DNA of 64,000 nt, from positions 2,046,001-2,110,000 of the forward strand of contig CM075937.1 in NCBI GenBank assembly GCA_038030265.1, in the 5' to 3' direction. The notes under the pieces are model-generated. The model was not told the origin of the DNA. It worked only from the letters and a program-made list of their open reading frames with translations, and ran no database searches. Source of the DNA: Corythucha ciliata (lineage: Eukaryota; Arthropoda; Insecta; Hemiptera; Tingidae). Of the stretch, positions 1,851-64,000 are shown one piece after another; the first letter of the stretch is position 1; each line of letters starts with the position of its first letter. The translations under genes and the position numbers were made by a program.

Positions 1851-1861
1851 CCCAAAAGTCA

Positions 1862-8342: not shown

Positions 8343-8377
8343 CGTGTTTATCGTTTTCGTTTAAGAAGCTGGCACCA

Positions 8378-10076: not shown

Positions 10077-10173
10077 TTGGCACATGCAGAACTTATGAAC
10101 GTGGTCTAATACATATTTTTTTAAGTTACTGCAGCACATTTCTCTAAAATTGAAATTAAAAATAGTAATTATA

Positions 10174-11266: not shown

Positions 11267-11424
11267 TGTTATATCTTTTGTACTTAGTTAAGAAATATTG
11301 CACGCGTATTTTAGGTAACTCTTTGTTTGAAATCTAATTTATTAATAATGAAAAAAATATGATTTGTAAATAATGGGTTCTGAAGTTCAACAAATAGGGA
11401 ATTTGAAGTGATGAAGCCATAACA
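11267..11424 (-). repeat. 3' LTR of the gypsy element
   Basis: On the + strand it starts TGTTATATC and ends CCATAACA. It matches 18842-18999 except TGTTA/TGTTG at the start and GAAGTGATG/GAAGAGATG near the end. Next to it, inside, is the CT-rich CTCCCCCTC (11426-11434), which read on the - strand is the G-rich polypurine tract. Confidence 0.95.
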
Positions 11425-11458
11425 GTCTCCCCCTCTTATAAAAGAGCTTAGAGGATGA

Positions 11459-13832
11459 CTAATTCATCACAAAGTCTTTGAATCGAACTGGCAAGCGAAT
11501 GTTCCGCCGGGGACGACGTTGAACTTCCTGCCGACAAGGGCTATAAGTGGTCGGAGATCCTTGAAGATGACTGTCAAAAGACTCATTTCCATTTGCTAGC
11601 AGAGAGGCACGAGGGAGCAAAATCGAACTCGTGGAAGGAGATCGAGGAAGATCTGGCCCAGTAAAGGAGCAAGGTCTGGGAATCTCGAACACCTGCGTTG
11701 GTCCAGTAAATTGGACCCTCTTGACGAGTGTCGACCTCATTTGATTTATGTGGCGCTTCACGGTCCTCCCAGAGTCCAAAAGAACGATATAGATGCAACG
11801 TCCAAGCCTTTTTTTTATCTCCCCGAATTCCCATGAGGGTTTGCTAGTTTTTGAAGAAACAGCCTTTATTTGAACTCTCTCGCCCACTGAAAAAGAACGA
11901 AAAGGACGAGATGAAGAAGGAGTAGGATTAGGCGATGGTAGGGAATTGGACGGAAAAATGGCATTTAAGCGAATGCGGAGGGTGCGGTGTAAGTATTTTT
12001 CGGCTGGAGACTCTCCACATGAAAGGGGGGTGGCTCGATGTTGGAAAAGTATTTTCCTGATCTTCTCTTGAATTGGAAGATTTTCATCCGAGGTGGCTCT
12101 CAGCCTATTTTTGAGAGTTTGGATGTTTCTTTCAACCAAACCATTGGTCGCCGGATGCCCCGGCGCGATAAGTTTTTGGGCTAGTCCTTTGGTATTACAG
12201 TATGCCACGAATTCGTTACTTGTAAAAATTGACGCGTTGTCCGAAACAATAACTCGTGGGTACCCGTGAAACGAAAAAATACTTTCTAGTAGTGCAATGG
12301 TGTCCGCAGTGGTTGGTGAATTCGGAGTAACACGGACTTCTGGCCACTTGGATCTCGCATCGACGCAAACTAGAAAAAAGTAACCGTCAACAGGGCCGGC
12401 ATAATCAATATGGACCCGGTCCCAGTTTTCTTCTGGTAGATTCCACGGATGAACGGGGACTTTTGGGGGATTTGATTTTACGAGAGCACAATTTTTACAC
12501 TCTTTTACCAAGCGTTCAATATCTCGGTCGATGGATGGCCAATAAACGTAACGACGGGCGAGCTGCTTCATCCGCGTAACGCCTTGATGCGTTTCATGTA
12601 GCTCGTCTAAAATTCCGGAACGAAGATTTTGGGGAATAACGACTCGATCATTTCTAAAAAGTATGCCATCTGACAAGGTGAATTCAGAATCTTCTGAGGA
12701 GGAAGAGAGTTTACGGACGAGTTCACCGAGTTCAGGATCTTTTGCCGTTTCTTCTTTTATTACTTTTATTGTTGGACTGGCGTCCGTGGTTAAAACGAGA
12801 GGTAATTTGGGGTCGAAAGGAACTAGAACTCGATCACTACAAAGTTCAGATTTTATTTTGATGAATGCTGACTCACAGTTTGATGTCCATTTCCAGAGGG
12901 CATTGTTTTTTAACAGGCAGCGAAGAGGGTACGTGATCGAAGAAAAGTGTGGAATGAAACGCGAGTAATATGTAGCGAGGCCTAGGAAACGACGTACTTC
13001 ATCGGCATTTGACGGTCGAGGCATATTCTGAACAGCGGAGACCTTCGCAGGAGACTTTGAAATTTTATTGTATTCGACGACGTGCCCTAAATACTCGATT
13101 TTGGTCTGGAAAAAAATGCACTTTTTTTGGTTAAGGTGTAGGTCATAATCGGAGAGTCGTCTTAAACAGGCATGTAAGTTTCGAAGACATTCGTGAAATG
13201 TCGAACCGTGGACAATGATGTCGTCGAAATACGACTCCGTTTTTGGGAGGTCTTGGAGGATTTGGGAAACAATCCGATTGAATTCAGACGGAGCTGTCTT
13301 GATGCCGAAGCTTAGACGATGCACGCGGTAAGTACCTCGGTGTGTCGAAATTGTTTGAATGACGCTGCCTTCTTCGTCAACCTTTAAATGAAGATAAGCT
13401 TTGAACAGGTCAAGTTTACAGAAAAAACGAGAGTTTCGAAGACTATTTAAAACGTCATCTATTCGCCGAATTGGGTAATTGGCTTTTACCAGTCGATCAT
13501 TTACCCCACATTTATAATCCACACAGAGACGGATTCCTCCATCAGGCTTAGGAATTACCACCAGGGGTGAGCCCCAGTCACTGGTGGAAACGGGGGAAAT
13601 AATACCGTCATTTTCGAGGGATTGTAGCTCTTTGTCTACACGGTCACGAAGAGCATGAGGAACGTCGCGTTCCTTCGTGAAAATAGGTTTTGCTCCTTTT
13701 CGAAGGTTGAGTCGTACCGTGAAATCTGGAACACAGCCTATCCTTTCTTGAAAAATGGTGGAATAGGTACTGAAGAGTTCGTTCAGAGCGTCATTTGAAT
13801 TTACGTTATTGACTGGAAGAGTGGACGACATC
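11459..13832 (-). CDS. gypsy Pol: RT and integrase, RNase H deleted
   Basis: One open frame with gypsy pol domains on the - strand. RT: VVIPKPDGGIRLCVDYK, then SYFDDIIVHG (catalytic F-D-D at about 13220), then RRFLGLATYYSRFIP. Integrase: zinc end HETHQGV...CKNCALV, then HIDYAGP, VSDNASIF and NGLVERN, giving the D,D,E triad, then a C-terminal region with a basic GERVQIK patch. Unusual: after TTDAS (about 12780), the first RNase H Asp, the protein jumps straight to TIKVIKEETAKDPELG, the linker that normally follows RNase H. About 150 or more residues, with the other catalytic acids, are missing without loss of frame. The frame continues upstream to 13906, but that part lies inside the inserted element. 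Confidence 0.9.
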
Positions 13833-14189
13833 CGGGCGAAAAAAGGTAATTCTCTTCGACTGTTACCTTTTCTCGGGTCGTTCCCTCTACACAAGTCCGA
13901 AAACAATCATCACACTCTTGTCACTAAAAACAAATTCTCCTAATAGTTGGTCTACGAACAGCAATAGTATAGTGATGTGCTATATTTCATGCTCGACTAT
14001 TTTGTGTTGTAATGTTGGCAACACAACTGACGTTTCTTTTATCAATTTCAATTTACTTACCTTTATTTTGGTAATTCAGTTGACGAATGATCCTCCGTAC
14101 TAAAAATTCCCTTACAGAACATCGTTTTTCATACGATCACCCACTCAAAAGTTTGAACGGTTGAATGGTTAAAAAACGTAATTTTCAGC

Positions 14190-14665
14190 CTTTTTTGTCT
14201 CTTTTGGTTGTAACGACTTCACTATCAGTTTCTCATGATAGTTCACAGAGAATAAGTTGAAGATCATTACATTTCCTTCGAAATGAGCCCTTTTCGAACA
14301 CTTTACACCAACGTAGCAATAAGTTACAGACGTATGAACTGACCAAGTTTTTTCATTTTCAAAAAATCCTACTATCCAACGCCGGGAAAATCAAGTATGA
14401 TCAAGCTTGAACATATAGCTTGGGTTTGTACTGCTCATAGACCCCGTTATTTCTACCGTTTTTTAGTTGGATTTGTTAAAAATGAAAAGACTTGGTCGGT
14501 TCACACGGCTGTAACTTGAGGTTACATTGGTCTAAAATGTTCGAAAAGGGCTCAATTCAAAGGAAATGTAACGCTCTTCAACTTATTTTCTGAGAACTAA
14601 TTGTGAGATACTAAAAGTAGAGTCGTTGCAAAGTAAAAGAGTCGAAAAAAACAGAAAATGGTGGT
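14190..14665. repeat. Foldback element nested in the gypsy insert
   Basis: Arms 14190-14370 and 14478-14655 are inverted copies with scattered mismatches. For example, GAGCCCTTTTCGAACA at about 14285 is matched by TGTTCGAAAAGGGCTC at about 14538, and TTGTAACGACTT by its complement near 14625. No coding content. Confidence 0.75.
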
Positions 14666-15291
14666 TTTTAACACAATTTCCCAATATTTCCGAGTCACGT
14701 AAGTTGGAAACTATTAGGATATAATTATGAAAAATCGAAACAAGTGACCTTCCTGGTGGTCTCCAGCAACCTGGTCACATCGGACATCCGGGGACTTTTA
14801 GTATGTTTACCTCCCAACAGCCTCAAACATATTGGAAAATTAAAAATTCACTAAACTGACCATGTTGACCTATATTCTCTTATTGACTGGACTAAATACC
14901 ACAACCCCCTGAATCGTACATGTATAGGCAACTCCTCAGATTCAACTGCGTGATTCATTGCTAAATATGCAATGTCGTGTCCAAATGGCCAGCTTTCTCG
15001 CCGAGAAATATAAAATAGCTCGATTAGCAATTTATACGTCAAAAGACTCAAGCATAGATACCCAGGTAAAACGGCATTTGGCTATTGGGTTGTTATAGTG
15101 TATCACGCACCTACTAGACCAGAATTTCAGGAAAAATTCGTCGATATTTTACCTATCTTCTTAATCACTTAATTGGGTTATTGCGTCAGCATTCGTTTAT
15201 TCGGCAGAAATAACAATTTTTCATCAAAATCTAGTCTTGACTTCTTCAAAATCGGACATTTTCACTTAGGTCAAATTGGCCGTTAATCAAC

Positions 15292-15720
15292 AATGGGGAA
15301 CTTGCACATTTTTCAAAAGTTGGTGTTTCTTAAAGAGGGCTCTTCCACAAGCCTATATTGCTCACATTAAACTTTGAAATCAATCAAGGATGCTTTTTCA
15401 GCGAATTTCTAAAAAAAATTGAGTGGGGGTTCGATTACGTCAAAACTTATTTATTGAAATGGATGATGCGGGGAAGAGGGGGTTAGACGCGTTTACTGGA
15501 AGGAAATTTTTCATGTTATTTGTAAACAAACAATTTTAGAGTTCCCTCAAATGCTTCACAAGTAAGGATTGACGTAATTTCCCGTCAGAACTTTGAACCT
15601 TTTTTAAAAATCTTAAAACGCACCAATCGGGTTGCAACTTCCGTTGTTATCCTTCAGTTCACGGGTCAAATCACCGGTACGCTTTTCTTCCCAATCTGAG
15701 ATTCATGCAAGTTCCCCATT
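15292..15720. repeat. Inverted-repeat MITE
   Basis: Ends are a perfect 15-bp inverted pair: AATGGGGAACTTGCA at 15292-15306 and TGCAAGTTCCCCATT at 15706-15720. The centre is non-coding. No clear target-site duplication. Confidence 0.5.
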
Positions 15721-16597
15721 AACGATTTGGTGGATAGCTTTGTAGCTTTGGGGTAACATGTGGTAGGAATTTAACAAGAACAAAATTGAAAACAAGACAC
15801 GATTTACACCACCAAACTGAAGCTTTTAAAAATCATTCAAAATCCTATCAAGAAAACAATTGATCTCGTCGGTAACGAAAAAAATAAAGATTACACTTTT
15901 AGGAAAATTATGTTATCCTCGCCACAGGTTCTGAATCTCATTTATTTGGACGCTGAAGTTTCGTTTCACGGGATGATGAGAGCTCTAAATGACAAAATTG
16001 GTATTACACAATAGCTAGACACCGAACCCAACACTTCATACCTCGTAGCCATTTTGCAATCACGAAGTTTTTTTTTTGTTTTTTTTCCTTTGGCATTGGC
16101 TTTGCGCCATACAGCCATTGCATTTAAGTGAGATATAGGAATAGGAAGTTAAATTCATGTTTTTACATCACCCATATGTGGAGAAGAAAATAAGGAATTT
16201 TGTTTTTAACGCCAAAAAGACTTGTCATTGGAAATCACGAAGATTGAATAACTGCCCCAAAAATTAACAATCATAACCTCAGATAAAGAAAATGTATGCT
16301 TACATCCACGAGAGAATACTCAAAAATCCATTTCACAGCATCGTCCACGACAGTCATGATCATGAAAAAAAGAACAGCTCAAATTCAGAGGAAAATCAAG
16401 AGTATAATTATTTAATTCATCTCATAATCCATGTTTCTTGATGAGTTCATCTTGCTCTAGCATATCAGGCATTAAACAATACGCAATAAGAAGCCATCGA
16501 TTGCCCTTGAGCTATTCTAGCCAGAATATAATACCAATATTATAGTGGGAAAAATGGCTTAATTTCGTCACTTTTGAGAGGTACTCTGGTGCAACGT

Positions 16598-16785
16598 ACA
16601 AGCCTTAAAGCGAGCAAATTCTTGCTTTATTGGTCAGCCAGAGTCTAAATTTGAAGCACTGGAGGAGCTATTAATTAAACGTCGATTGTTTTCAGCCGGA
16701 GGACGATCTTGCAAGCCTTAAAGCGGGGCAAGTTCTTGCTTTATTGGTCAGCCAGAGTCTAAATTTGAAGCACTAGAGTAGCTGT
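16598..16785. repeat. Direct repeat of about 75 bp
   Basis: Two copies, about 16600-16672 and 16713-16785, share CAAGCCTTAAAGCG and GGTCAGCCAGAGTCTAAA with few differences, separated by about 40 bp. Local duplication inside the gypsy insert. Confidence 0.75.
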
Positions 16786-17321
16786 TGGATTAGAAAGCAA
16801 AACAGAAGCATGAATTTTGTACCGGATGATAGAGAGGATAATTACATACGGAATCTTATCAAAGAGATGAAAAAAGAGTATGAGATGGCTCGCATGTTTT
16901 AGCTTAATATTCTTTGGTTTTACAAACCTGTCTTAATTGTAAGTTCCGTGAGGTAGCTTGAAGAATATTGCGTGACGAATACTTTAAATCCTTCATTAGA
17001 TAGGTTGTATACAATTGAGGCACTTACAATATGAATAATTCCAGAAACAAAACACACATTCGAAAGGAGATTGAGTATTTTTGAGTTATGTTGTCACACC
17101 GAAGGAACTTTTTAATACGGAGGATCATTACAACACAAAATAGTCGAGCATGAAATATGGCACATCACTATTGCTGTTCGCAGACCAAGTATTAGGAGAA
17201 TTTGTTTTTAGTGACAAGAGTGCGATGATTGTTTTCGGACTTGTGTAGAGGGAACGACCCGAGAAAATGTAACAGTCGAAGAGAATTACCTTTTTTCGCC
17301 CCGTTGTCGGCATCCCGACTG

Positions 17322-18792
17322 GAATAGGGAACTTCATTTCATTATCGACCTGCTTAAGATCGATTTCGAGCTGACGGATCCACTGTCTCCCTAGAAGAGC
17401 GTCGTGACCGTCGGGAACTAAATACATTTCGCCGACAAATTCTTTTCCGCGATATCCGACTGTAACAGAAACTTTTCCTCTCGAGTTAATGATATTACCC
17501 GTGTAGGACCGAAATGATATATTTGAAGGCTTCACGGGGAGTGACAAATCGAGCTGATAGAAATCCTGTTCGGAAAGTAGCGAGTACTTGGCTCCGGAAT
17601 CAACCTCGAAAGTTTGTGGTTTTCCGTTTAAGAGAACTGTGACAACGTATTTGTCCGAATCAGACACCTGTAATTCAAAAAGATTGACGATTTTTTGGGA
17701 GGGAAAAGAGTCGACTTTTTGAAGGCCGTAAATGGCAGGTTCCTTTATGAATTCGTTCGAAATAGGTTCCACCGACGAAGTTGAAGTGGGATCGGAAACT
17801 GCGTGGCCCTTTCGCAAGAGGGTAGAGAAACAAACCCGGGCGACGTGACCTTCTTTCTTGCATGAATTGCAATGTAATTTCGAACGGTCGTGTTTACATT
17901 CTGTAACGGTATGGTTTTCTTTTCCGCATCTGAAACATAAATTTTCAATGCCAAGTGTTCTGTAACTGGGTTGACGACTGTGTTTAGAAAAACTCGATCG
18001 TGATCCTTTACTCGACGAACGTAAACGAGACTTTGACCTGTACTTCGAACGACTTTGACGAGATGAAGTGGAAATAGCGTTAGTATCCCCGATATCCAAT
18101 AGTGAGCGGCTCGAAGAGGATCGCTGAGTGAGTTCCTTACTCTCGATTCTTGAGGCTTCAAGGGCAGCTGCTTTGGCAAGAGCTTCATCGAAATTCGAAA
18201 TATCGGCCTGTAAAATTTGCTCTCGCATCCAGTCTTCCCGTAAACCGCGGACGAATTGTGCCCTAAGAAAAACGTCGGTTATTGAAACTGATCGGGAACA
18301 CTCACATTTTATTGAAAATTCGCATTCTGCTATGTCGCGCTGAAGAGTAGCAACATATTCTGCGATTGACTGGCCCTCTTTTTGATAGATGCTCAGGAAG
18401 TAGTGCTGAGCGAGTACGACGCTCTTTTTCGGCACGAGCATTTTCTTGAAGGCTTGTACCAGATTGTCATAGGTGAGGGTTCTGAGCGATTTTTCAGGAC
18501 CTAAATAAGCCTTGAGGTTATTGTAGTGGGTGGAACCGATGGAAGCGCACAAAAGTTGGGCAATCTTCTCCTGATCTGAAACATTTTTCATCGCTACGTA
18601 ATTTTCAAACCTTTCCAAATAGCACGGGAACTTCTCTTGTCGGGGGTCATAATGCTCGAAAGGAGCGATACTTGAAAAATGTATGTGACTGTCTCGACTT
18701 GTAGCTGGTGGGTGACCCGTGATGTGAGCTAGCAACGTAGCTTGTTGCTGTTGAAGAAGTTCGAGTACCTGTTGGAACTGGTCAGCGTTCAT
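17322..18792 (-). CDS. gypsy Gag with zinc knuckles plus aspartic protease
   Basis: The ATG at 18790-18792 lies about 50 nt inside the 5' LTR, as expected for gag. The Q-rich N-terminus is followed by a gag-like capsid region (HYDPRQEKFPCYLERFENYV), an Arg/Ser-rich stretch, then two CCHC knuckles: CFRCGKENHTVTEC (about residues 286-299) and CNSCKKEGHVARVC. A retropepsin follows with FEVDSGAKYSLL (Asp near residue 398) and LLGRQWIRQ. The native frame ends at ...PVGMPTTG where the insert begins. The open frame then runs on through insert sequence to 17128, which is not part of the protein. gag and protease look intact. Confidence 0.92.
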
Positions 18793-18841
18793 TTGAAATG
18801 ATTTTCGTACGACGAGGGACTATTTTCCTGACGTCGCCAAC

Positions 18842-44603: not shown

Positions 44604-47450
44604 TCAGTCTATCTTCTTCCTCTTTGAAGAACCACATTTTTTGTCATTCGAAGATTCTCCCAGAGTCTTCTTCCTTTTGGCCTCCCTTTGGCTTTTTTCG
44701 TCGTGAGGGAGACTGTCATAGAAAGCGTGGGTGTCATTGGGAAGTAATGGTTTAAGACTCTGCAGATCGTTGTACTTATCCAACGTTATAGTGAGGGGTC
44801 TCTTGAAGACGGGAGGAAAAGTAGAGACGGGGCTTACTTGTCGAGGTCGTTGGGGCAACGGGGCCAGTTCGTCCGAATAATTAAGCTTATAGCTGATCAC
44901 ACCGTTGGGGTTATACTGGATCAGTCGCAAATCTGTAACGGTAGGGTCTCCTGGAGCCCTTCCAGGTCGAATGGAAGGGTAAATCATTGACTGGTTATAA
45001 TCTCTTACAAATTCATGATCAATTTGCTTTGCTCGGTAGGGAAAGGGGTTCCTTCGTGCCTTCTTGGATAATTCGACGAATTGACTTGTCAGGTGAACGT
45101 CCAAGTTTTCGTATGACCCCTCAATGCGAGCATGAACAGAGTCCCCTTCCGAGTAGGTGTGTCCAACTTCGAGGAATTTCTGAGAGATGACCATTCCGGA
45201 ACTCATACTCAAATGTAAAAGGGCGTTGGACAATGTAGCGTTTCTGTGTTGATAAGCGCATCCATCTGAGATGATCACGACTGGCTTTTTTGAGCGTTGA
45301 AGAAGTTCTGATATGTAGTGTACTAAAAAACTTGCAAACGTTGTAGCCTGTAAATTGGCATTCGTCTCATCAAACCAGTAGGCCATTACGTCCTGATTCC
45401 CCAGGTTGTAAATCGTGAAATTGTGGACAGACAACTTCAACTTATAATACGCTGCACTAGCACGAATCAGTGGAAGACACTGTACCTTCATGAGATCGCA
45501 AACAATTGCATGAATTTCTCCACCTTGAGCTTTCTCTTTGTCCATTTTTTTCTCATTCTGTGCGTCTTCCTTTTTTTTAATGTGGGCAATGTAATCTTCT
45601 TCGTCAATATTTTTATTTTTAAATGCACAGCAAGTATCGCACTGGTCTTTACGTGGTGTAAAAACACCAATGTTCAAATTTTGCAGTTCATAACGGAATT
45701 GGCTCAAAGTCATAGACCCAACATCATCATTTTTACATTGCTTCACGTATTCATGGTACACAGCAGCCAATGATCTGAAATCAGTTTGGAGATATAGTTT
45801 TTTGGAGTCTTTCCTGGTGTAGTGAGAAGGCAGCTTCGGAAGTCGGGTCAACCAGTCAATCGCATATTTCTTCCTGAAAGCTCTGGCACGTCTCGATTGT
45901 CCATGGGTGTGGCCATTTTTGTGTCCCTCATGTTCTGATTGACTGCCATCGGGGGATGTTTCTTCATTGAAATTGACTTGATGGCTTGTTTCACCAAGCT
46001 CGCTCTCCTTGGGTCGCTGCTCCATGCTCCCGCTCTGCTGTTCATCATTTTTTTCTTTAGCCTCAACAACTTCACTTTCAGTCATGCGGTCCATGGTGCT
46101 CATCCAGTAACGTACTTCTTCCGCTGTACAACCTAAGGTGGAGAGGAAAAGATTTTTGCAAACAGCGTGTTTTTGACCGTCAAATTTTAAATGATAGAAA
46201 TAGGAGACTTTTCTTTTGGAGTTTTCACTTCTCACTCGTCGAGGGTCTGCCAAATCTACCACTGTGCGTACGTACGTCTGTTTTGTCTCCCATGACCATG
46301 TCCAGAACTCTTTGAAAAGTTTCGCTCTTTTTTCTTCACCAATTGAGAAGCACTTTCTGGTGTTTTTGTATTTCTTGCATGCCTCAGAAGTACACGGCGG
46401 CCCCATTTTCCGAGCTCCTCTCTCAACATCCTGATAAACTTTAAACTTTTTTTCCTTTTGATTTGATGAGTCTTCTGTAGAAAATCTTCGGTACCCAATG
46501 TAACTCTGACCGAGCATTCTTTTCAACTTGGCTGCTTTCCTCGAGTTTTTCTTTTCCTTTTTAGCCTCCACAACATTTTCCTGCTCAATGATGTTGAGGG
46601 GGTGCTCCTGCAATGGATTTGTGCTGATTTCTTCCTGAGGATTGGCTTGTATAAGCGCGTTGGACGCTGATTCCTGGAGTGGGGAGCAGGAGTGAATATC
46701 CTCCTGAGGATCGGCTAATACAGACACTTTGGGAGCTGATGCCACGGCAGGGAAGGAAGCATTGATCCCCCCATCAGAATCGGCTAAAAAAGCCACGTTG
46801 GGGGAGGAGTTCAAGGCAGGGAAGTCCATGTTGACCTCCTCATCAGAATGGGCCATCTCATGGATTGGAAATTGATTGTTGGAGGTCGAGTTCAAGGCAG
46901 GGAGGTCCACCATGATCTCCTGATCACAATTGGCTATCACAGACACGGTAGGGGTTGATTTCAAGATGGAGAGGCTCGCTCCCTCAGAAATGGATATCAC
47001 AGTCGTGTTGAGAGCAAAGTCTGCTGTATCATCTAACAGTACCCCCTCTTCTCCTTCTGCTCCTATCATAATAAAATTCGCATTCTCCAAGTCAACTTCA
47101 TGAGCAGTATTAGCAGCAACATCGAGGAATCCGGAGTTTGAAGGTAACTCAGTTTGTATTTCAGGAAGCTGAGCAACATAATCACAGTTCAAGGGGGGAG
47201 AATGACTAGTGCCAAGAAGTATGTCGAATGGATCTTTGGAAACTTCCCTCATACCTGGTGTCGAAATGCTGACGGGAGGAGTTGACTTTGTTGGACGTTT
47301 GTTGGAACGAAGTTTAATGGTCACAAGATCGGAGTTTTCCATAGCACTTAGCAGCTCGTCTTCGGGTACAATGTCATTCGAAGCATCACTGCGGCCATCT
47401 GAGTCCTCTTCATCACCCGGGGTGTATTCACTAGATGTATCACTATCCAT
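44604..47450 (-). CDS. 948-aa transposase-like protein
   Basis: Intact frame. The N-terminal third is acidic, with four or five degenerate repeats of about 35 residues (DLPALNSTSNN, DFPALNSSPNV, SFPAVASAPKV). A basic patch (KKNSRKAAKLKRM) and a Cys-containing region (CTSEACKKYKNTRKCFS) may bind DNA. From about residue 540 comes a conserved core: TPRKDQCDTCCAF, VCDLMKVQCLP (Asp about 652), VVIISDGCAYQHRNATLSN (Asp about 729), then LEVGHTYSEGDSVHARIE (about 762-779). Spaced acidic residues suggest a DDE/RNase H-like nuclease (inference). The tail is Lys/Arg-rich (KRKKID). The family occurs in many invertebrate genomes but I cannot name its superfamily. The start Met lies 11 nt inside the second exon. 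Confidence 0.8.
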   Translation of the reverse strand: MDSDTSSEYTPGDEEDSDGRSDASNDIVPEDELLSAMENSDLVTIKLRSNKRPTKSTPPVSISTPGMREVSKDPFDILLGTSHSPPLNCDYVAQLPEIQTELPSNSGFLDVAANTAHEVDLENANFIMIGAEGEEGVLLDDTADFALNTTVISISEGASLSILKSTPTVSVIANCDQEIMVDLPALNSTSNNQFPIHEMAHSDEEVNMDFPALNSSPNVAFLADSDGGINASFPAVASAPKVSVLADPQEDIHSCSPLQESASNALIQANPQEEISTNPLQEHPLNIIEQENVVEAKKEKKNSRKAAKLKRMLGQSYIGYRRFSTEDSSNQKEKKFKVYQDVERGARKMGPPCTSEACKKYKNTRKCFSIGEEKRAKLFKEFWTWSWETKQTYVRTVVDLADPRRVRSENSKRKVSYFYHLKFDGQKHAVCKNLFLSTLGCTAEEVRYWMSTMDRMTESEVVEAKEKNDEQQSGSMEQRPKESELGETSHQVNFNEETSPDGSQSEHEGHKNGHTHGQSRRARAFRKKYAIDWLTRLPKLPSHYTRKDSKKLYLQTDFRSLAAVYHEYVKQCKNDDVGSMTLSQFRYELQNLNIGVFTPRKDQCDTCCAFKNKNIDEEDYIAHIKKKEDAQNEKKMDKEKAQGGEIHAIVCDLMKVQCLPLIRASAAYYKLKLSVHNFTIYNLGNQDVMAYWFDETNANLQATTFASFLVHYISELLQRSKKPVVIISDGCAYQHRNATLSNALLHLSMSSGMVISQKFLEVGHTYSEGDSVHARIEGSYENLDVHLTSQFVELSKKARRNPFPYRAKQIDHEFVRDYNQSMIYPSIRPGRAPGDPTVTDLRLIQYNPNGVISYKLNYSDELAPLPQRPRQVSPVSTFPPVFKRPLTITLDKYNDLQSLKPLLPNDTHAFYDSLPHDEKSQREAKRKKTLGESSNDKKCGSSKRKKID

Positions 47451-47461
47451 CTCGTTCTTTT

Positions 47462-47921
47462 CTGAGAAAACAAAGAGAAAAAAACAGTTTTGTGAACAAC
47501 CGTTCTGTCACATTTTCGGGTGCATAGGTATTACTTGTCTCCTAAAACGCGAGCTCAAGTCAACGTGATACTTGTGATAGAAGAGTCAACTTGATACGCG
47601 AAAAAAGTACGGAAATATGAGCTAACATCCATGCAACATAAAGCATTATACAATCAATTTTCAACTAATTTTTAATAAAAACAACAAACTTTAAAGAAGA
47701 AGCATCCCTCAACTCTGAAGCAATACCCCACAACGTCTTAAACTAGTTGTGTCAACAACCCACTTTGTCAGAGCACGTAATTTCATCATGAAATCATCGC
47801 GAAAATGGACAAACTTTTGCAATGAAGTCGTTTAATGTATGAAGAAACTATCCAAGTTCAATTGGAAACAAAAATACCGCACAAAAAACACAAAGAAACA
47901 AAAAAAACAAAGAAAACTTAC
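47462..47921 (-). other. 5'-UTR intron of the transposase gene
   Basis: On the - strand the donor is CTGAAG/GTAAGTTTTC (intron starts at 47921) and the acceptor is TTGTTTTCTCAG/AAAAGAACGAG (intron ends at 47462), 11 nt before the ATG. Both are strong consensus sites, so the transcript probably begins near the right TIR and is spliced once. Confidence 0.65.
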
Positions 47922-49456: not shown

Positions 49457-49845
49457 GTGGCGTAGGTAGGAATTTGTCCTGGGGGAGGGATCAGATTGAA
49501 ATCTCGTAAGTGCGAGGGGAGGGGGGTAATTTCACATTTTAGTCATCATTTCACCCAGACAGCACACCCTTGAATCTGGACATCTTGCTGGCCTCATCAT
49601 AGCCTCAATCTCTCAGTTAAGGGCGATTTTTGGTAGTGATGCACGAGACCGAGACGAGACCGACTTTTCATGATCGAGACCGAGACCGAGACGATACCGA
49701 CTTTTCATGATCGAGACCGAGACCGAGACGATACCGACTTTTCATGATCGAGACCGAGACCGAGACCACTAAAGTCTCGTCTCGGTTTCGGTCTCGTGCA
49801 TCACTAATTTTTGGACTCTACCCGAACATTAGCGGGTAGACTCGC
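49457..49845 (+). repeat. Dispersed repeat beginning CAGTGGCGTAGG, interrupted by a hAT MITE
   Basis: Begins CAGTGGCGTAGGTAGGAATT and matches 23116-23300 in reverse. After TTAAGGGCGATTTTTGG it is broken by the MITE at 49634-49806 and resumes ATTTTTGGACTCTACCCG, then GCGGGTAG, where the GC-rich tandem array starts. Confidence 0.75.
49634..49806. mobile_element. 173-bp hAT MITE with an internal minisatellite
   Basis: Ends TAGTGATGCACGAGACCGAG and its near-complement, flanked by an exact 8-bp duplication ATTTTTGG (49626-49633 and 49807-49814), the hAT hallmark. The interior has about three tandem 39-bp units starting GACTTTTCATGATCGAGACC. Its absence from the homologous repeat at 23116-23300 confirms the insertion. 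Confidence 0.92.
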
Positions 49846-52060
49846 GACGGTCGTCTGGTAGCGTCGCCCTTCGCGCTGTTGCAGATCCTCTTGTCGAACT
49901 AACCGGGCCGTTACGTCCTCTGTGCTGTCCGTAGTGCTTCTTCGCCGGGTTCGGCAAGGTACAAAATTTTGGACAATCGTCTTGCTCGATAATTCTGGGC
50001 AGACACAAGTGTCGCTAAGCCCCGTAGTATCTATCGAGTTTCACCGGGTGAGGAACGAGAATGAATGTTGAACCGGAGTCGTCTCATCGGTCTCACAAGG
50101 CCACCGGTCAGGCCACAATAGTTTCCCTTCAAACAAGGTCCATCTCTCAAGGATGTGTCATCTTGAAGGTCCCGCATTATCCTGCCGGTCCTGGATATCT
50201 TCAAGTGTATGACGTCTGTACAGTAACGTCTAATCACAATAGGGTTCCCTTCAACAAGCGTCCTCTCTCAACGAAGCTTGAAGGTTCCCGTAAGTGATCC
50301 ACGGTCGGGTTTATAAGCGTCAGTCACGACGACTTTAACAAATAACGGTCTATCCCCAATAGGTTTCCCGTTCAACAAGCTCGGATCTTCACAACGGATA
50401 TGTCGATCTTGGAAGGTTCTCGAAAGTTATCCCGCCGAATGACGTCTAGCGCCGTTAGGACATTGACCAGGCGGCTTAATCCACAATAGGTGTCACTTCG
50501 ACCGTTTATTCAATGATTTCCGGTCGTTCCGGTGCGTAGGACTTCGCGACGGTCGGTCTGGTAGCGTCCCCTTCGCGCTGTTGCAGGATCCTCTTGTCGA
50601 ACTAACCGGGCCGTTACGGTCCTCTGTGCTGTCCGTAGTGTCTTCTTCGCCGGGTTCGGCAAGGCAAGGGAAGTTTTGGACAGGATCGGTCTTGCTCGAT
50701 GAATTCTGGGGCAGACACAAGTGTCGCTAAGCCCCGTAGTATCTATCGGAGTTTCACCGGGGGTGAGGGAAACGAGAATGAATGTTGAACCGGAGTCGTC
50801 TCATCGGTCTGGCACGAATGCCCTTACCGGTGGTCAGGCGGCCACAATGGAGTTTTCCCCTTCAACAAGGGTCCGGAGTCTTCTCAACGGATGTGTCGAA
50901 CTTGGAAGGGTCCCGCGAGGTTATCCTGCCGGTCCGGTTTGGATATGCGTCAAGTGTATGACGTCTGTAACAGTAACGGTCTAATCCACAATAGGGTTTC
51001 CCTTCAACAAGCGTCCGGAGTCTCTCAACGGAGTAGAGCTTGGAAGGTTCCCGTAAGGTTATCCGGACTGTTCGGTTTTGATATATTGCGTCAGGTCACT
51101 GACGACTTAAAAAAATAACGGTCTATCCCCCAATAGGGTTTCCCTTCAACAAGCGTCGAGTCTTCTCAACGGATATGTCGAACTTGGAAGGTTCTTCGAA
51201 AGGTTATCCCGTCCGATGGACTGAATCTATGCGTCCGGGTCGGGTTTAGGACGACTTGAGCCAGGGGCGGCTTAATCCACAATAGGGTGTCCACTTCGAC
51301 AAGTGTTTCGGAGTCTTCTCCACGAGGTAGAGCTTGGAAGGTTCCCGTAAGGTTATCCGCCACCCACTGCGTCAGAAAAAGAAAAATACCACTGGCTATG
51401 GGTAGGCCTGTTGGGCTAACGGTCCGTTAGCGTCCCTTGTTGTTGTCCGCAGCGTCTTCTTCGCCGAGTTCGGCAAGGATAGGGAAAGGTTCGGACAGGA
51501 TCGTCTTACTCGATGATTCTGGGGCAGACACAAGTGTCGCTAAGCCCCGTAGTATCTATCAAGCTCCACCGGAGGTTAGGGGAACGAATGAAAAGAATAA
51601 CCGGAGGTCTTCTCTACGGTTTTGGGCACGATCGGCGGTCAGGTCCACAATAGGGTTTCCACTTCAACAAGCGTCCGGAGTCTTCTCAACGGAGTAGAGC
51701 TTGGAAGGTTCCCGTAAGGTTATCCGTCCAATTTACTTGGATCTATGCGTCCAGTTGGGGACGACTTGAACCAGGGGCGGTTTGATCCACAATAGGGTGT
51801 CCACTTCAACAAGCGTCCGGAGTCTTCTCAACGGAGTAGAGCTTGGAAGGTTCCCGTAAGGTTATCCGTCCCACTGGTCAGAAAAAAACAAAACGGGGTA
51901 AGAGGCCTCGGTCAGGGTCAGCCTTATACCAACCGGTCAGGATCGAATCACTGAAGGGTCGGAAAGGTTCCCAATAGGCTTTGCCCGTTGATGCCTTGGT
52001 AGGGTGTGACGTCACGAACGGTCAAGAGTCGTCTCAATTGACCGCTGGACATTTTCCCGT
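49845..52060. repeat. GC-rich higher-order tandem array
   Basis: Built from two unit types. A short unit of about 120-145 bp with core CCACAATAGGGTTTCC, CAACAAGCGTCCGGAGTC and TTGGAAGGTTCCCGTAAGG occurs about ten times, at about 50110, 50230, 50350, 50477, 50840, 50983, 51125, 51270, 51645 and 51787. A longer block with TTCGGCAAGG and GTGTCGCTAAGCCCCGTAG occurs three times, at about 49950, 50660 and 51460, giving a higher-order period of about 700-800 bp. GC and CpG content are well above the surrounding DNA. The first block is shorter because many G/C runs are shortened. No coding or rRNA similarity recognised. Confidence 0.85.
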
Positions 52061-54939: not shown

Positions 54940-56336
54940 GTCCTCATCAATAAACAGCAATCTAATAATTATCACGTGGAATAGCCTGGGGTTGAACAAT
55001 AAATACCACGAACTGAAACTCTTCTTGAAACAACATGACGTAGACGTGGCACTCATTGGCACAACAGATCAATTTTTGCATCCCTAATTATAAAATCTAC
55101 AGAGCAGATCAACCGTCGGGCACTCGCCAAGGTGGCTCAGCTGTTCTTATAAAGGGATGTATAGCTCATGTTGAAATACTTTCTATTTGTGAGCAAGAAG
55201 CCCAAGTAGCTCGAATCGGCATCAAAATTAGTGGCGAACATTACATATTTGGTGCTTTCTATTCAGCCCCCGATAGACAGGACCACAAACTTCCTATGAG
55301 TACGGTTTGGGGAATTATACACGAAATGAAACACAAATTTCTCATGGGGGGAGACTATAACGCAAAACATGCTCGTTGGGCCTCCGCCACAACCAACCCA
55401 AGAGGAATTGAAACTCGAAGTTTTTCACCCTCTAGAGCCGACCCACTACCCAGCAAACAAGAGACATTCTCCAGATGTGCTGGACATATTCCTAGGAAAA
55501 AGGATAAATAACATGGCACCAAATGTTCGTGTCCTGCATGCCTTATCATCAGACCACTACCCAGTCCTGATGAATTTGACCAACGATACTGCACCATGCA
55601 ACAAACCTGATAGACTTATGATACACCCCTTCAACTGGAAACACTATAAAGCTATTCTGAATGAAATAACGGATCTGGCCGTACCTCTCAAAACTCCTGC
55701 GGACATTGACAAAGCAGTAAGCAAACTGACTCATAACATACACTACGCAGTTACAGAAGCAAATACTACACGCAAGGTTCCTAGCAATGAAGTCTCCGCA
55801 TATACGCCCACACATGTATCCCAACTAGTACACGCGAAACAAAGAGCGCGTAGCTTGTGGTAACAAACAAAATATCCTCCCCATAAACGGGCACATAACG
55901 AAGCCACAAACGAATTGAAAAAGGCACTAGAAGAAATAGACGGTGACGACAGGAAGAATTCACTCTTGCTCCTGGACAGTAAGGATGGCTCACTCTACCG
56001 AAAAGCAAAAATGTTAATGAAACAGTCTAAAGCTATACCGCCTCTCAAGCACAACGGCAGATGGTACTCCACAGCCGAGGAAAAAACAACATTATTCTCG
56101 AGACTGATCACCCAACAATTGACACCAAACCCAAGTCATCTACCGGATTTTCATAAGTGAATTGAAGAAGAAGTTACCGAGCCACTCGTATTATCCTCGT
56201 TTAAGGAATTCTTCACTCCGAATCAAGTGGAGAACGCAATTAAAAGGTCGCCAACCAACAAATCTCCTGGCTTCGATCGTATTACACAGCCCCTGTTGAA
56301 GAACATTCCCAGGAAAACGCTTGTTAGCCCACTGAT
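54940..56336 (+). pseudogene. Jockey-type LINE ORF2: endonuclease and start of RT, cut by a transposon
   Basis: Apurinic-type endonuclease motifs in order: IITWNSLGLNNKYHELK, RQGGSAVLIKGC, FLMGGDYNAKHARW and, after a frame change at about 55400, LHALSSDHYPVLM (the S-D-H motif). A linker follows with a stop at 55861-55863 and another at 56158-56160, then FTPNQVENAIKRSPTNKSPG, the start of the RT. Similarity stops at about 56336 inside the RT fingers where the long-TIR element begins. So the LINE was 5'-truncated, decayed and then interrupted. Confidence 0.87.
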
Positions 56337-56554
56337 TTTAGACACAAAAAAAGGCAAACATCGGAATAATTCGCGTAAAAGCTTTTTCTTTCTTATGTTG
56401 TTTGGGTACCAACGAGTAGTACAAAACCAATTTTGCAGCTTCGAAAGACGTGAGCTAACCTCAGGGCATTCGAAAAACCTCGAAATATTTTGACTTTTTT
56501 CAGTTTTTGGCTTATAACTTCCAAACTATGCATCCCATCGAAAAAGTCACTGCA

Positions 56555-56815
56555 TACTTTTTTAAACTAGAATAAATTCTCTGTAATTTGAATCCAACCC
56601 CCATTTTTTGGGTCCAATAGTTTCCGAAATACAGTGCTCCAAAAATTGGCAATTTTTTCCAAAAAGTCGAATATTTAAGTTTTGACTCTCTTTCGGGCGA
56701 AATATCGGCCTAAATAATAACAAGTCATAATAAGTCATAAGGGATGAAGTTATAGGGAAATTATTTGGCTTCAATTTAGGACCAAAACGAAGCATTTAGG
56801 CCTAATAGTCCTCTT
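56555..56815. repeat. Left terminal inverted repeat (visible matching part)
   Basis: Matches the complement of 63490-64000, e.g. CAATAGTTTCCGAAATACAG, AAATATCGGCCTAAATAATA and AGGCCTAATAGTCCTCTT at the inner edge. Differences are few (for example GATGAAGTTATAGG against CTACATCC on the other side), so the arms are young or homogenised. Confidence 0.85.
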
Positions 56816-57382: not shown

Positions 57383-60300
57383 ATGTCATCCATTCCTTCG
57401 GGTTGTTGCTTTGTGTGTCGTAATACACTTGATGAAGGGACAGTGGTTGTAGTGAAAAAACGCGGAATTCAGACGCTTATTGAAGTGAGTGTGAAACGGG
57501 GTCTTGCTGAGAATGAAAACTTTTTAGGAAATTAAGTGAAGTCTCCTTACATGACGCCTGTCGAAAGAGGTACACCGTGGAAAGCAATGTTGAAGCATCT
57601 GTTCGACGTGGAGGTGATGCAGGTCCTTCAGCTTGCACTTCGCGGAGAGATCGGGGCGTCTCAGCTGCTGGTGGTGCCAGGCACCACATATTAGTTGATA
57701 TTTGCATCCTTTGCGGGGAAAGAATCACAGAGGATTTGTAAAGGCCCAGCTAAAAAAATCCCTTTCACGAAGAAATCCAACGTTGAACCCTCAACAAAGT
57801 TGAAACCCTCAGCATGAAGGATTCAATTATAGAAATGGCTGCCCAGAGTGGGGAGTGGGGAGAACAGATAATACAGCGTCTTTCTTGTATTTCTGACCTT
57901 GTTGCTGCTGAGGGCCAGTACCATCATGACTGTTACAATAAGCTGTGGGCCAAAAAGCGTGGCAAAGGATTCAAGAGATCAGGGCGCCCACAGGATATAG
58001 ACCTTGCGGAGGGTATGGAGAGGATTTACGAATACCTTGCAGAAAACGAACATGAGTGTCAAATTGCATTGAACGATCTATTACCTCAAGCCTTCCCAGG
58101 GGATTACCAACCTGATATCAAGAGCGTCGAATTACACCTGAAGAGGTACTTTGGGGAGCAAGTCATGTTCACAAAGACAGGTCAGGGCCGCATCTCAATA
58201 GTCAGCTTCGGGGGCATTGGGCAAAAGATCCTGTATGACAGTTGGTATCAAGAGAGAAAGAAAAACAAACAAGAGGAGCGATTGAGAGTGGTCAAGGCTG
58301 CAGCTGAGATAGTACTGCAGGATATTCGCTCACAAATATATGACATTAGTGAATATCCTCCTTCTGACGATTTTATGAAAAATGCTGAGGATGACATGCC
58401 GGAGACTTTAAAAGTGTTCCTTGAGACGATAGTCCTCAAAAACAAGCGATACTCCCTTGACTACTGGAAAAAAAAAAAATTACAGCATTTGGCCATGCAA
58501 TCATAACAGCAGTCAGGCCCAGATCCTTCTTGTCCTCAGTTCAGGTCAGCTTTGGTGCTTATTTGTACAGAAAATTTGGCTCAATGCACCTTGTAAATCT
58601 CTGCTATTCCATGGGATTTCCTGCAGTTACAAGGAGGCTATGAGAGTAGAGAGTTCAGCCATCGTTCGGGGAGAACTTGCACAGCTGATTGAAAAAGGTG
58701 CTTTTATGCAGTTTGTTTGGGACAACGCTGATGTTAACGTCAACACATTGGATGGCCTCAACACATTCCACGAGATGGGTGGAATCATGATAATAACCCC
58801 TTATTCCTCCATCAACCCTAGACAAAAATATCCCAAGGTTGAAATATGTTTCTGCAGAATCATTAACAGCGCATACCCAATCAGAACTCATGTCGTCCAC
58901 TGTCAGCAAGAATGCAGGCTTATCAGCTATTTCAATAGCTGATGCGAAAGCTTCGAGTGAAATTCTACCTTCAACCCCAGACCTCCTCTGGTTGTTTGGG
59001 AAAAGTCACAGCACACCAGGAATCCCAGGTTGGAATGGCTATATGGAACAGGTTACCCAAGACCTTCCCTATCAACGCTCGAGGATAGTTTTCCTTCCAT
59101 TTATCCACGCTCCCCCAACAGACTACGACACTGTTCTCACGTCTCTAGTTCAATCCTGTGAGAGAACACGAACTCACGGACAGACAACGTGCTTCGTGAC
59201 ATATGACCAACCTTTATACATGAAGGCTAGAGATATTGTGGAGAGCTGCCAAAACCCTCAGCTGACAAATGTAGTGGTACGATTAGGGGGCTTCCACCTT
59301 CTCATGTCGTTTATGGGGGCCATTGGCGCCATAATGGCAGGGAGCGGGCTGAAAGAACTCCTGTCGACTATATTTGCAGAGAATAGTGTCGACAAAATTC
59401 TACATGGGCATGCATATTCGAGAGCCGTGAGGGCTCATATGTTGACGAATCTTGCACTTTCTCTCTTCATTTGGAACGATGAAGTAGATACCACAGTAGG
59501 GGAACGAACCGAAATTGAAAACATGCTGATAAAGATGTCGGAAAAAAATGCTGAAAAAGAGAGAAATATGATTCTGCAACTGACAGAGAACAAAACTATC
59601 CAAATCCTCGGTGCCAAATTCAAAACTGCGATGGAAAAACTGGAAAACAGAGGACCAACATCAAAGCTCTGGATTCAGTACTTCCAGATGACTGTACTGA
59701 TGAAAAAATTCATTCAAGCAGAGAGAATGGGAGATTGGAACCTTCACCTGGAGACAATCAATAACATGCTCCCTTTTTTCCACTCAGCTGGCCATTTCCT
59801 CTATGCTAAGAGCGCTCGGCTGTACCTCCAGGATATGGGAACACTTCAACAGCGAATGGACCCAAAAGAGTTCCGCTCATTCACAGAAAGAGGCGAGTTT
59901 ACCATTCGTCGCTCGCACAAATTTTGGTCTGGCCTGTGGACTGATCTGACTATTGAGCAGGTTCTAATGCGGTCCATGAAGAGCCAGGGTGGCTTGACCC
60001 ATGGGCGAGGAATATCAAACAGCGTTCTTGCTCGATGGACGGGTGGAATGGTATTCATGCTAAACATTTGCGAGGGAGTTGAATACTACTGGAACGTTTC
60101 CAGCACCACCAGTGAAGAGCATGTTGACATGAGGCCCTCCCGCATCGGACGTGACACTGATGATGTGGAGAAATTGAAAAACTGGTTGGATGTCCACGTT
60201 CCATTTCCTTCCACTGACAAACTGTTGTCCATAAGCAGTGGGATTGTTGGAACCTCAGAGGTCAACTGTCATCAAGCACAGGAATTGGGAGCTGAAGGGG

Positions 60301-61955
60301 TTAAACAAATCACAGGACATACGTACGGAAAAGTTGGTTTCAAACGAAAAGACAAAGTAAGAACTTTGGCTACAGCTGTCATCAACTTTGACAACAAGAA
60401 AGTTGAGATTGATCCCCTCACCATATTTCAAAGGCTGTGCATCATCAAGCAATCAGAACATCACTTAAAGGAGCACTTCAAATACGAGTTGGCTCCCTAC
60501 CCAATGGCTCTGTTTTCTGAAGAAGGGATGCGTAAAGGTACAAAATCGAGCTTCTATGCGGCTTTCACTCCCCTCGCAGAAAACATCCCTATAACAGGCC
60601 CGAATTCTTTTGTAGTGGTTGATGGAGGTTTCCTACTCCACAAGGTCCAGTGGCGTCGCAATGATAGCATCAGAGTGATTGTAGCTGCCTTCATCAGCTA
60701 CACATGTCACCACTATGGGCAGAATGTTACAATTGTATTTGATGGCTATCCTGAGGATGGGGCTTCGAGAAACACCAAAACAGCCGAACGCCTACGTCGA
60801 TACGGAACCTCGGGGTGTAGTGACATCATCTTCCATGAATCTACATTCATTGCAGTACCCCAGGAGAAATTTCTCTCCAATGACAATAACAAGCGTCGCC
60901 TCATCCAATTTCTCTGCTCAGGGTTCCAGCGAGAGGGGATCGAAACAAAAGTAGCTGAAGAGGATGCAGACTCTACTATTGTTAGGACATCCCTAGCCAA
61001 GAGCAGGTGTTACGAAAATGTTTTTGTCGTTGGAGAGGATGTTGACCTGGTGGTGCTACTCACTGGTTTGGGCTCATCCGTACGCAACGTGTACCTCCAC
61101 AAAAGCGGGAGGAGTGACTCTACGCCATCGCAGTACTCCACAGCCTCGTTCAATCGCGGGGAGGAGTCATACCCCCCTGGTTTTGAAATGTTTCTACACG
61201 CATTCACAGGGTGTGACACAACGAGCGCCCTTTTCTGGGTCGGGAAAATGAAGGTGCTGCGAGTCTTTCAGCTGAATAACAGCCTCATTGATGTCGCAGC
61301 CACCTTCTTGAATCCCAACGCCACCCAAGAAGAGGTTGCCTCAGCTGGGGTGAAGTGCCTCCAAGCCATCTATGGAGGCAGAGAAACTGAGGAACTGCAC
61401 GAGCTCCGCTATAAAAACTTCGTCCAGGCAGCAGCCAACGTGCGAGTTAATCTAGCACGTCTACCCCCAACCAAAGAAGCAGCAGCCTACCACTCTTATC
61501 GTACATACCACCAAGTACAGTCGTGGTTGGGGGTAGAAAAGCAGGCAACCACCTGGGGCTGGATGAAGAGCCAGCAGGGGCTCCTTCCCATCCCCTTCAG
61601 GCAGCCTCCAGCGTCACCTGAAATATTGAAGCTGATTTCATGCAAATGCAAGAAAGGCTGCATGGGTGGGTGCTCCTGCAGGAAAGCAGGACTTGTCTGC
61701 TCGAGTTTGTGCGGCTCATGTCGAGGCATAGCATGCTCTAACGTTGCCCCAGTGGATATTGAGGAATCAGACGAAGAAGATGCCATGGACGAACCACTCC
61801 CAGTCCTCATCCTGTGGATTCAGAAACTATCTACGAATGTGGGCCCTCCAAAAGACGTAGGTGATTTCTCCTCAGACCAACACCCCCAACCATCTTCAAT
61901 GTTATTTACATGTACAGGGTGGTCGGTTTTGAGATGCAAAAAAAAAATTGGGTAA
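57383..61955 (+). pseudogene. Giant transposon protein: transposase-like core, PIN/FEN1-like domain, CXC cysteine-rich tail
   Basis: Starts MSSIPSGCCFVCRNTL (57383) with a C-x2-C, and after a slip near 57520 VSLHDACRKRY and ILCGERITEDL. Then 57814-58506: LVAAEGQYHHDCYNKLW. After an A-run slip at 58470: FVWDNADVNVNTLDGLNTF. Then a long open frame 58839-61955 with VVRLGGFHLLMSFMGAIGAI and IFAENSVDKILHGHAYSRA. The C-terminal half has a nuclease-like set: FVVVDGGFLLHKVQW (about 60610), VTIVFDGYP, AEEDADSTIV and VVGEDVDLVVLL, the acidic pattern of PIN/FEN1-type nucleases. Then a CXC-like block CKCKKGCMGGCSCRKAGL and CGSCRGIAC. The last residues (from about 61915) are read from the mariner insertion. 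At least four frame breaks. Family recurrent in invertebrates; superfamily name not known to me. Confidence 0.75.
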
Positions 61956-63440
61956 TAGTACACCAAAAATGGGATAAAAAAGTCCTATTCGGATAGTGGC
62001 CTATCTCTTTTTGCTTTCGAGTAATGATTTTTTTAGTGATTTTTAGGCGCAACTGTATTTTTCGCCGAAAAACTGTTATTTCTCAGCTTCTACTTCACGT
62101 TTTTCCAAAAGTGATGGCAGTTTTGTAATCTACGGAAAATTTTCTACGGGATGAACGCAAAATCAATATTCTAAATTGTCATAAACGCCTAAAAAAGTAA
62201 CGTTTTCGTTGCGTTAATGCAAAAAAACCAAGAATTTGACATCACAAAACAATTTACTGTGTCACCAAAAATGTCTTCACACGTTGTCAAACGACATAAA
62301 AACTTCTCCGTTTTCCCAGCTTTCCAACGGTGTACTCGAAAGTGGAATTATCTCCCTCCTTCGACGAGAAAATTCGAAAAGAAGCGAAAAAGTCATACAT
62401 TTTGGGCTAAAAATGTCAATAATAACAGGTGCGAAAATTCAATTGTTTGGCTCTCTTTCTTGAGAAATCCAAGCTCTGGCACTATAAAAATTAAAATTTA
62501 TTGCATTTGAAGAATAAACAACAAACAAACAAATTAATAAAATGGACGAAGAGGTGTGCGAATTTAGGGCGTCTGTTGGATTTTTATGGGGTCTGGGCTG
62601 GGATCGTCGGAGACCGAAATCACCGTCTTGCTGGAAAATAATTTGTTCCCTCAGCTCTGGGTCCATTCCGTCAAGAAGACGTGGCAATTCGACTTGCAGG
62701 AAATGCAGGTAGCCTTGCCCCGTTCCTTCAAAGAAATGTGGGCCTATTAATCGGTCTCTCCGACCCATAAAAAACCAGCAGACGCACTAAATTCGCCCAC
62801 CTCTTCTTCAATTTTATTAATTTGTTTGTTTGTTGTTTATTCTTCAAATGCAATACATTTTAATTTTTATAGTGCCAGAGCTTGGATTTCTCAAGAAAGA
62901 GAGCCAAACAAATGAATTTTTGCACCTCTTATTATTCACATTTTTAGCCCAAAATGTATGACTTTTTCGCTTCTTTTCGAATTTTCTCGTCGAAGGAGGG
63001 AGATAATTCCACTTTCGAGTACACCGTTGGAAAGCTGGGAAAACGGAGAAGTTTTTATGTCGTTTGACAACGTGTGAAGACATTTTTGGTGACACAGTAA
63101 ATTGTTTTGTGAAGTCAAATTCTTGGTTTTTTTGCATTAACGCAACGAAAACGTAACGTTTTCAGGCGTTTATGACAATTTAGAATATTGATTTTGCATT
63201 CATCCCGTAGAAAATTTTCTGTAGATTACGAAACTGCCATCACTTTTGGAAAAACGTGAAGTAGAAGCTGAGAAATAACAGTTTTTCGGCGAAAAATACA
63301 GTTGCGCCTAAAAATCACTAAAAAAATTATTACTCGAAAACAAAAAGAGATAGGCCACTATCCGAATAAGACTTTTTTTATCCCATTTTCGGTGTACTAT
63401 TACCCAATTTTTTTTTTGCATCTCAAAACCGACCACCCTG
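61915..63440. mobile_element. Mariner-type foldback element with about 680-bp arms
   Basis: Ends CAGGGTGGTCGGTTTTGAG and exact complement, flanked by TA. The arms (61915 to about 62600, and about 62765-63440) are nearly identical inverted copies, so the two strands give the same chance frames (62217-62510 and 63137-62844). The 165-bp centre holds the tail of a mariner transposase. It lies at the 3' end of the giant pseudogene and replaces its last codons. Confidence 0.93.
62600..62768 (-). pseudogene. Mariner-type transposase fragment
   Basis: Codes IGPHFFEGTGQGYLHFLQV and ELPRLLDGM, then IIFQQDGDFG, matching the mariner/Tc1 block 'GP.FF.g...g..Yl..L...lp' and the second catalytic Asp motif 'w.QQDgAP.H', which is altered here. 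Only about 55 residues remain in the centre of the foldback, supporting its mariner origin. Confidence 0.75.
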
Positions 63441-63489
63441 TATATACTCAAGTACCTACCTATTACTGTTTAATAAATAAGATTTCAAT

Positions 63490-64000
63490 AAGAGGACTAT
63501 TAGGCCTAAATGCTTCGTTTTGGTCCTAAATTGAAGCCAAATAATTTCCCTATAACTACATCCCTTATGACTTATTATGACTTGTTATTATTTAGGCCGA
63601 TATTTCGCCCGAAAGAGAGTCAAAACTTAAATATCGTCGGCTAAGGCGTGATACCTCGTTAGTGAAAATTTGGCGAAAAATAGGTTTTGGTATCAAATTT
63701 TTCGTTAGATACCTAACTTGATTATCATAAATTTTGATTTCAGGATAATCAATATAATTTTTTATGGGAGCATTGCCAAAAGTTTGAAATTAATGTACAA
63801 ATAGGGATTTTTCATATGATTTTTTGTTCTCCTGTAAAGTTTGGTTTTTGGACATACGAGGTATCACGCCTTAGCCGACGATATTCGACTTTTTGGAAAA
63901 AATTGCCAATTTTTGGAGCACTGTATTTCGGAAACTATTGGACCCAAAAAATGGGGGTTGGACTCAAATTGCAGGGAATTTACTCTAGTTTAAAAAAGTA
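63490..64000. repeat. Right terminal inverted repeat, interrupted by a MITE and cut by the window end
   Basis: Begins AAGAGGACTATTAGGCC, complementary to the inner end of the left arm, and continues collinear to the last base of the window. Confidence 0.85.
63634..63881. mobile_element. 248-bp MITE inserted in the right TIR
   Basis: Ends TCGTCGGCTAAGGCGTGATA and exact complement; inverted ends of at least 26 bp. TA lies on both sides, and the uninterrupted left TIR (AAATATTCGAC, complement of 56684-56694) shows the pre-insertion site, proving a TA duplication. Non-coding. Confidence 0.93.

Follow-up and report, generated by a model that had tools for sequence, protein, structure and literature searches.

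Does the mobile element at the right edge of a 64,000-nucleotide stretch of the genome of the lace bug Corythucha ciliata (assembly GCA_038030265.1, contig CM075937.1, positions 2,046,001 to 2,110,000; the whole stretch is called the window here and coordinates count from its first letter) encode a transposase fused to a nuclease of its own? A sequence-only reading had proposed that one gene inside long terminal inverted repeats (TIRs) joins a transposase-like core, acidic blocks laid out as in PIN/FEN1 nucleases and a Cys-rich tail. The transposase–nuclease fusion is confirmed, and structure prediction, fold comparison and conserved residues bear out all three parts in one protein. Most likely the element is an AcademX-type member of the Academ superfamily, a cut-and-paste DNA transposon of the autonomous kind that has decayed; its one protein unites a DDE-type transposase core with a FEN1/EXO1/XPG-type 5′ nuclease and with the Cys-rich tail. 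The features of its gene are given below, with residues numbered in an intact relative of 1,479 amino acids (P0001) or in a protein for which the core was modeled (P0113).

57383–61864, forward strand: transposase–nuclease fusion gene, broken copy (tblastn of P0001 and P0003; C-terminal frames)
57383–57960, forward strand: N-terminal region with two CxxC...HxxC pairs, putatively zinc-binding and DNA-binding (its Cys and His positions are invariant or almost invariant across 15 relatives, apart from where P0101 is truncated)
58721–58732, forward strand: DNAD, candidates for the first catalytic Asp (D439/D442 of P0001; 54 of 54 relatives; on predicted β strand 1, P0113 136–147)
59205–59207, forward strand: candidate second catalytic Asp (D605 of P0001, in FDQPLY; 54 of 54; D310 of P0113, directly past its strand 305–309)
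59955–59957, forward strand: candidate catalytic Glu (E847 of P0001, in TIEQ; 54 of 54; P0113 helix 554–567, past a helical insertion)
60555–61547, forward strand: FEN1/EXO1/XPG-type nuclease domain with GCD motif (AlphaFold model; Foldseek and VIA-align; invariant residues)
61641–61738, forward strand: Cys-rich, CXC-like tail with nine Cys (nine columns at least 90% conserved)

An AlphaFold model that includes the nuclease domain (predicted local distance difference test, pLDDT, 87.4; predicted template modeling score, pTM, 0.83) is matched by Foldseek and VIA-align to EXO1, FEN1 and XPG over the PIN-like fold and the helices that follow it, so that the structural match to a PIN fold on which the sequence-only reading had staked itself exists. 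Among the 31 acidic residues in the nuclease range of P0113, eight are at least 95% conserved across 54 aligned relatives, and these are the seven FEN1-type positions together with the Glu of a K..E..RR helix; the seven active-site acids, K833 and R840 are each present in 54 of 54. The window retains acidic residues of the domain at 60621, 60741, 60963, 60969, 61038, 61044 and 61215, and the blocks VDGG, FDGYP, EEDAD, GEDVD and GCDTTS lie in 60621–61217, with DNADVN further upstream at 58721. The acidic blocks thus follow the FEN1/EXO1 active-site layout beyond chance, as had been proposed, with the assignment of the conserved acids to FEN1 residue numbers and roles being one that we take to hold.

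The sequence-only reading had also asked whether an RNase H fold is present upstream of the nuclease. In the larger predicted model of P0113 (pLDDT 85.6, pTM 0.70) DNAD falls within a long first strand, an Asp follows a later strand and a Glu sits on a helix past about 170 residues of helical sequence; D142, D310 and E559 are invariant, and this secondary-structure order fits a DDE transposase whose RNase H fold carries a helical insertion. The choice of E847 of P0001 as the catalytic Glu is a judgement because E770 is likewise invariant in the relatives. The nuclease took up the hit lists when this model was used for fold searching, so the RNase H fold is likely and rests on the predicted order and the invariant D/D/E residues, not on a fold-search match. 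Pfam recognizes DUF6589 in five of 15 relatives, overlapping the transposase core and above its cut-off in P0071.

The copy in the window is broken and decayed. By tblastn P0001 spans 57389–61850 in five pieces, successively in frames 2, 1, 3, 2 and 3, with in-frame stops at about 57740–57790, so that the single continuous gene first envisaged is not what this copy holds. From the start codon at 57383 the gene runs to a stop at about 61864, after a relative-like C-terminus, PSKRRR, in a further frame; the end formerly placed at 61955 takes in some 40 bases of a mariner insertion.

Homology searching gave 512 protein relatives at E ≤ 0.001. Insects (ants, beetles, butterflies, aphids, whitefly and wasps) make up most of the named sources among the matches listed, the best 120 of the 512; also present are an octocoral, Dendronephthya, and one record assigned to the rust fungus Austropuccinia. 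Several of these matches bear the UniRef name ‘Tesmin/TSO1-like CXC domain-containing protein’. Counting 155 proteins from two homology searches, 78 have at least 1,400 residues, and 67 of those 78 carry all five transposase and nuclease motifs. The rust record, P0101, is a close relative filed under Austropuccinia psidii on a 5.2-kb contig, a matter of contamination or horizontal transfer. Scans of viral and prokaryote contigs gave no relative, and a distant-DUF6589 homology search with AcademH-type targets in mind had no helicase domain noted among the matches listed (best 120 of 424). The protein gets no name from Pfam on pieces of the window (top hit NYN_YacP, E 0.053, under its cut-off), from NCBIfam on three relatives or from a sequence search of PDB. 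Pfam gives no match to 57389–57532 in the N-terminal region, and neither Pfam nor a PDB sequence search matches the Cys-rich tail, where pLDDT is low.

That the gene belongs to a mobile element is apparent from its other copies. Searching the 401-Mb assembly (57 contigs) gave at least 47 stretches matching the element, some being pieces of one copy; the figure is a lower bound because 44 of 1,118 first-look candidates were scored. Eighteen copies were examined, the one in the window and 17 others, and in 13 of them, the window's included, the gene is flanked by TIRs of 227–642 bp, as had been proposed for the window. The terminal motif TAGNCCAGTCA or a close form of it stands at both ends of ten copies, at one end of seven and at neither end of one (L022), a count that is partly circular because the motif was derived beforehand from those same copies; there are two matches away from ends (L031 at 8909, L038 at 939). 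The controls on the target-site duplication (TSD) are free of that circularity. Immediately outside the motif six of the ten two-ended copies have exact 3-bp direct repeats (GTA, TAT, AGT, TAA, TAC and AAA), while left and right 3-mers taken from different copies agree in one of 90 pairs, and moving the boundary by 1–3 bases in either direction gives 0 of 10 every time. No 4-bp duplication matches in the ten. TA, considered as the TSD, is at both ends of all ten copies; it is, however, a palindrome belonging to the TIR, and what matches within copies is the 3-mers outside it.

Five copies (L025, L026, L027, L028 and L033) are 99.1–99.8% identical over their longest frames. L027 has 1,486 codons open and keeps its TIRs and TSD, and full-length frames are likewise present in L029 and L030. 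L025 and L026 are near-identical, 55 kb apart and in opposite orientation. In L025 (C6:4425800–4435700), of the recent subfamily, the N-terminal coding part occurs twice in tandem, at 1391–2104 and 2695–3408; given that doubling and the 55-kb spacing, local duplication may have had a share in producing the pair. Taken together, the copies show, as far as sequences can, an element that moves, duplicates 3 bp on doing so, is widely dispersed and has spread recently.

The copy in the window begins at 56325 and ends 221 bases beyond the window, a length of 7,897 bp that counts the later insertions, and its boundary features are these:

56325–56815, forward strand: left TIR, ending in TAGCCCACTGA (inverted match to 63490–64226; terminal motif at both ends)
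63490–64000, reverse strand: right TIR, reaching about 64221 outside the window (inverted match; end motif; flanks)
61915–63438, no strand assigned: later insertion, a mariner-type foldback foreign to the element (arms 61910–62590 and 62764–63445)
63635–63880, no strand assigned: later insertion, a small miniature inverted-repeat transposable element (MITE) with its own inverted ends, foreign to the element and inside the right TIR

Its inverted repeats measure some 490 bp. Once the sequence past the window is included, the inverted match is 56321–56815 against 63490–64226; inside the window the arms agree at 116 of 120 bases and at 144 of 145. The host site is a Jockey-like long interspersed nuclear element, whose frame halts at 56324 (...NIPRKTL) and resumes past the right end (...YNAILRTTYFPSRWKHAEIIMVPKPNKP). 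The foldback and the MITE occupy the 3′ part and the right TIR, and are later arrivals because copies L022 and L032 are without the foldback and L032 is without the MITE. The foldback consists of two inverted arms of about 650 bp with CAGGGTGGTCGG ends and a scrap of transposase-like frame between them; the MITE has inverted ends of about 30 bp (CGTCGGCTAAGGCGTGATACCTCGT) and an ATAT duplication.

Where the element belongs follows from its TSD length, nuclease and TIRs, which fit AcademX; for the same reason the fusion, though real, is of a known kind. It had been supposed that a nuclease-carrying DNA transposon would be unusual, and here the earlier expectation gives way, since PMC10045372 already has AcademX as a nuclease-encoding Academ lineage. 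The same paper gives TSDs of 3–4 bp for AcademX and 9–10 bp for AcademH, seemingly related to the encoded nuclease and helicase, and Academ is listed among the DDE/D superfamilies in PMC10294476.

Several points weigh against this assignment and what is built on it. The element is filed by TSD length, nuclease and TIRs, and the kinship of its transposase to Academ is presumed. The nuclease of AcademX is called XPG-like; the literature searches made turned up no passage in which an XPG nuclease is named for Academ, and none on a CXC tail in AcademX-type elements, the latter saying little. No sequence profile detects the nuclease, with no Pfam XPG match and no PDB sequence match. Fold searches of the P0113 model, PDB included, listed nuclease matches alone, the nuclease filling the list, and the lack of an RNase H match there says nothing against that fold. 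Some copies have altered named residues (Tyr at D1211 in L035, Lys at E1125 in L033 and Asn at D442 in L025). No exact TSD flanks the window's own copy (TGT/CAC), L026, L029 or L033, those of L029 and L033 being one base off and those of the other two unmatched. Lastly, the flap-trimming step, and with it the role of the nuclease, is something we infer.

How might the parts work together? A 5′ flap is the usual substrate of FEN1. We tentatively favor, at somewhat less than even chances, a joint mechanism in which the N-terminal Cys/His pairs and the CXC tail, both putatively zinc-binding, would help to bind the TIRs, the DDE core would cut the element ends and join their 3′ ends to target DNA with a 3-bp stagger, and the nuclease would clear the 5′ flaps at element–target junctions so that the gaps could be filled and sealed. 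It is possible, though doubtful, that the fused nuclease itself carries out a step of transposition, removing 5′ flaps or trimming staggered ends, freeing the element from host flap nucleases and setting the short 3-bp duplication by which this lineage stands apart from Academ elements that bear a helicase. Rather unlikely, for the same element, is an EXO1-like 5′ resection by the nuclease at the empty donor site or the element ends, which would push repair toward homologous copying and so raise copy number; as FEN1 follows within 1–2 Z units in the fold ranking, the rank cannot tell exonuclease from endonuclease use. Another role, which we consider unlikely, would have the nuclease open or trim excision hairpins or itself set the target stagger, the DDE core alone then giving another TSD length. 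The seemingly enzyme-related TSD lengths of AcademX (3–4 bp) and AcademH (9–10 bp) in PMC10045372, and the 3 bp in the copies here, are in keeping with that; against it, TSD length usually tracks the spacing of transposase active sites, and the relatives found here include neither an AcademH element nor one lacking the nuclease for comparison. Flap removal, donor-end resection and hairpin or stagger processing are all live, and the evidence here separates none of them.

Less probable than any of these is that a transposase of another DDE superfamily, KDZ- or hAT-like for instance, was independently joined to a FEN1-type nuclease. DUF6589 is the sole similarity of the DDE core, and its Academ kinship is presumed. 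On the other side, the nuclease content fits AcademX as PMC10045372 has it, and the 3-bp TSD of the copies fits AcademX and not the 7–8 bp of KDZ (Kyakuja-Dileera-Zisupton), that length being given for Kyakuja and the Dileera family Zisupton-1_PGr in PMC12730594. A captured or domesticated host nuclease gene lying merely between repeats, for which one could cite the relatives annotated as ordinary host proteins in UniRef and NCBI and the five of 18 copies in which no TIR pair was detected, is set aside as hardly credible in the face of TIRs in 13 of 18, matching ends, TSDs in six of ten, near-identical copies with differing flanks and the absence of any single-copy syntenic orthology seen; the copies do not bear out intact paralogues standing outside TIRs as ordinary host genes, the case that would have told against the sequence-only reading.

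Elsewhere in the window, a 967-codon open frame on the reverse strand (44604–47507) has no Pfam match, contains IISDGCAYQHRNATLSNALL and is possibly the transposase of an undescribed or unprofiled family. A cluster of retroelement and piggyBac-like frames occupies 1238–18819, with an integrase at 1238, DDE_Tnp_1_7 at 2478, proteases at 7477 and 17128, an 815-codon reverse transcriptase–integrase frame at 11459–13906 and an assembly gap near 3790–4330. Two tandem arrays, at 49644–49766 (37-bp unit, 3.3 copies, 98% match) and 50842–51209 (142-bp unit, 2.6 copies), lie in the GC-richest part of the window.

With a transposase that has a repair-type nuclease built in, one can ask directly if a mobile element is able to bring its own end processing and need not borrow that of its host, and because this genome has copies that spread recently, are nearly identical and include an intact frame, such a test is practical. 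The element also accounts for a set of invertebrate genes annotated ‘Tesmin/TSO1-like CXC domain-containing protein’, members of this family being, in at least this genome, transposons and not host regulators.

Set beside known systems, the nuclease shares with the EXO1, FEN1 and XPG 5′ nucleases (the Rad2 family) its fold, seven acidic positions, paired DxD motifs, GCD motif and K-x6-R; it differs from them in being fused to a transposase and a Cys-rich tail, and it is 13–15% identical to EXO1 and FEN1 in structural alignment, with no profile match. The KolobokE, KolobokD and KolobokP elements, in PMC9587614, are likewise DDE transposons with an accessory nuclease, though theirs is lambda-exonuclease-like, DnaQ-like or His-Me instead of FEN1-type and the transposase superfamily differs. 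AcademH, according to PMC10045372 and PMC10799480, is of the same superfamily by name and also bears an accessory DNA enzyme, in its case a helicase in place of the nuclease, with TSDs of 9–10 bp. AcademX shares most with the element, namely TIRs, short TSDs (3–4 bp reported in PMC10045372, 3 bp here) and a nuclease that accompanies the transposase, a likeness by description; the element here also bears its N-terminal Cys/His pairs, its CXC tail and its TAGNCCAGTCA ends.
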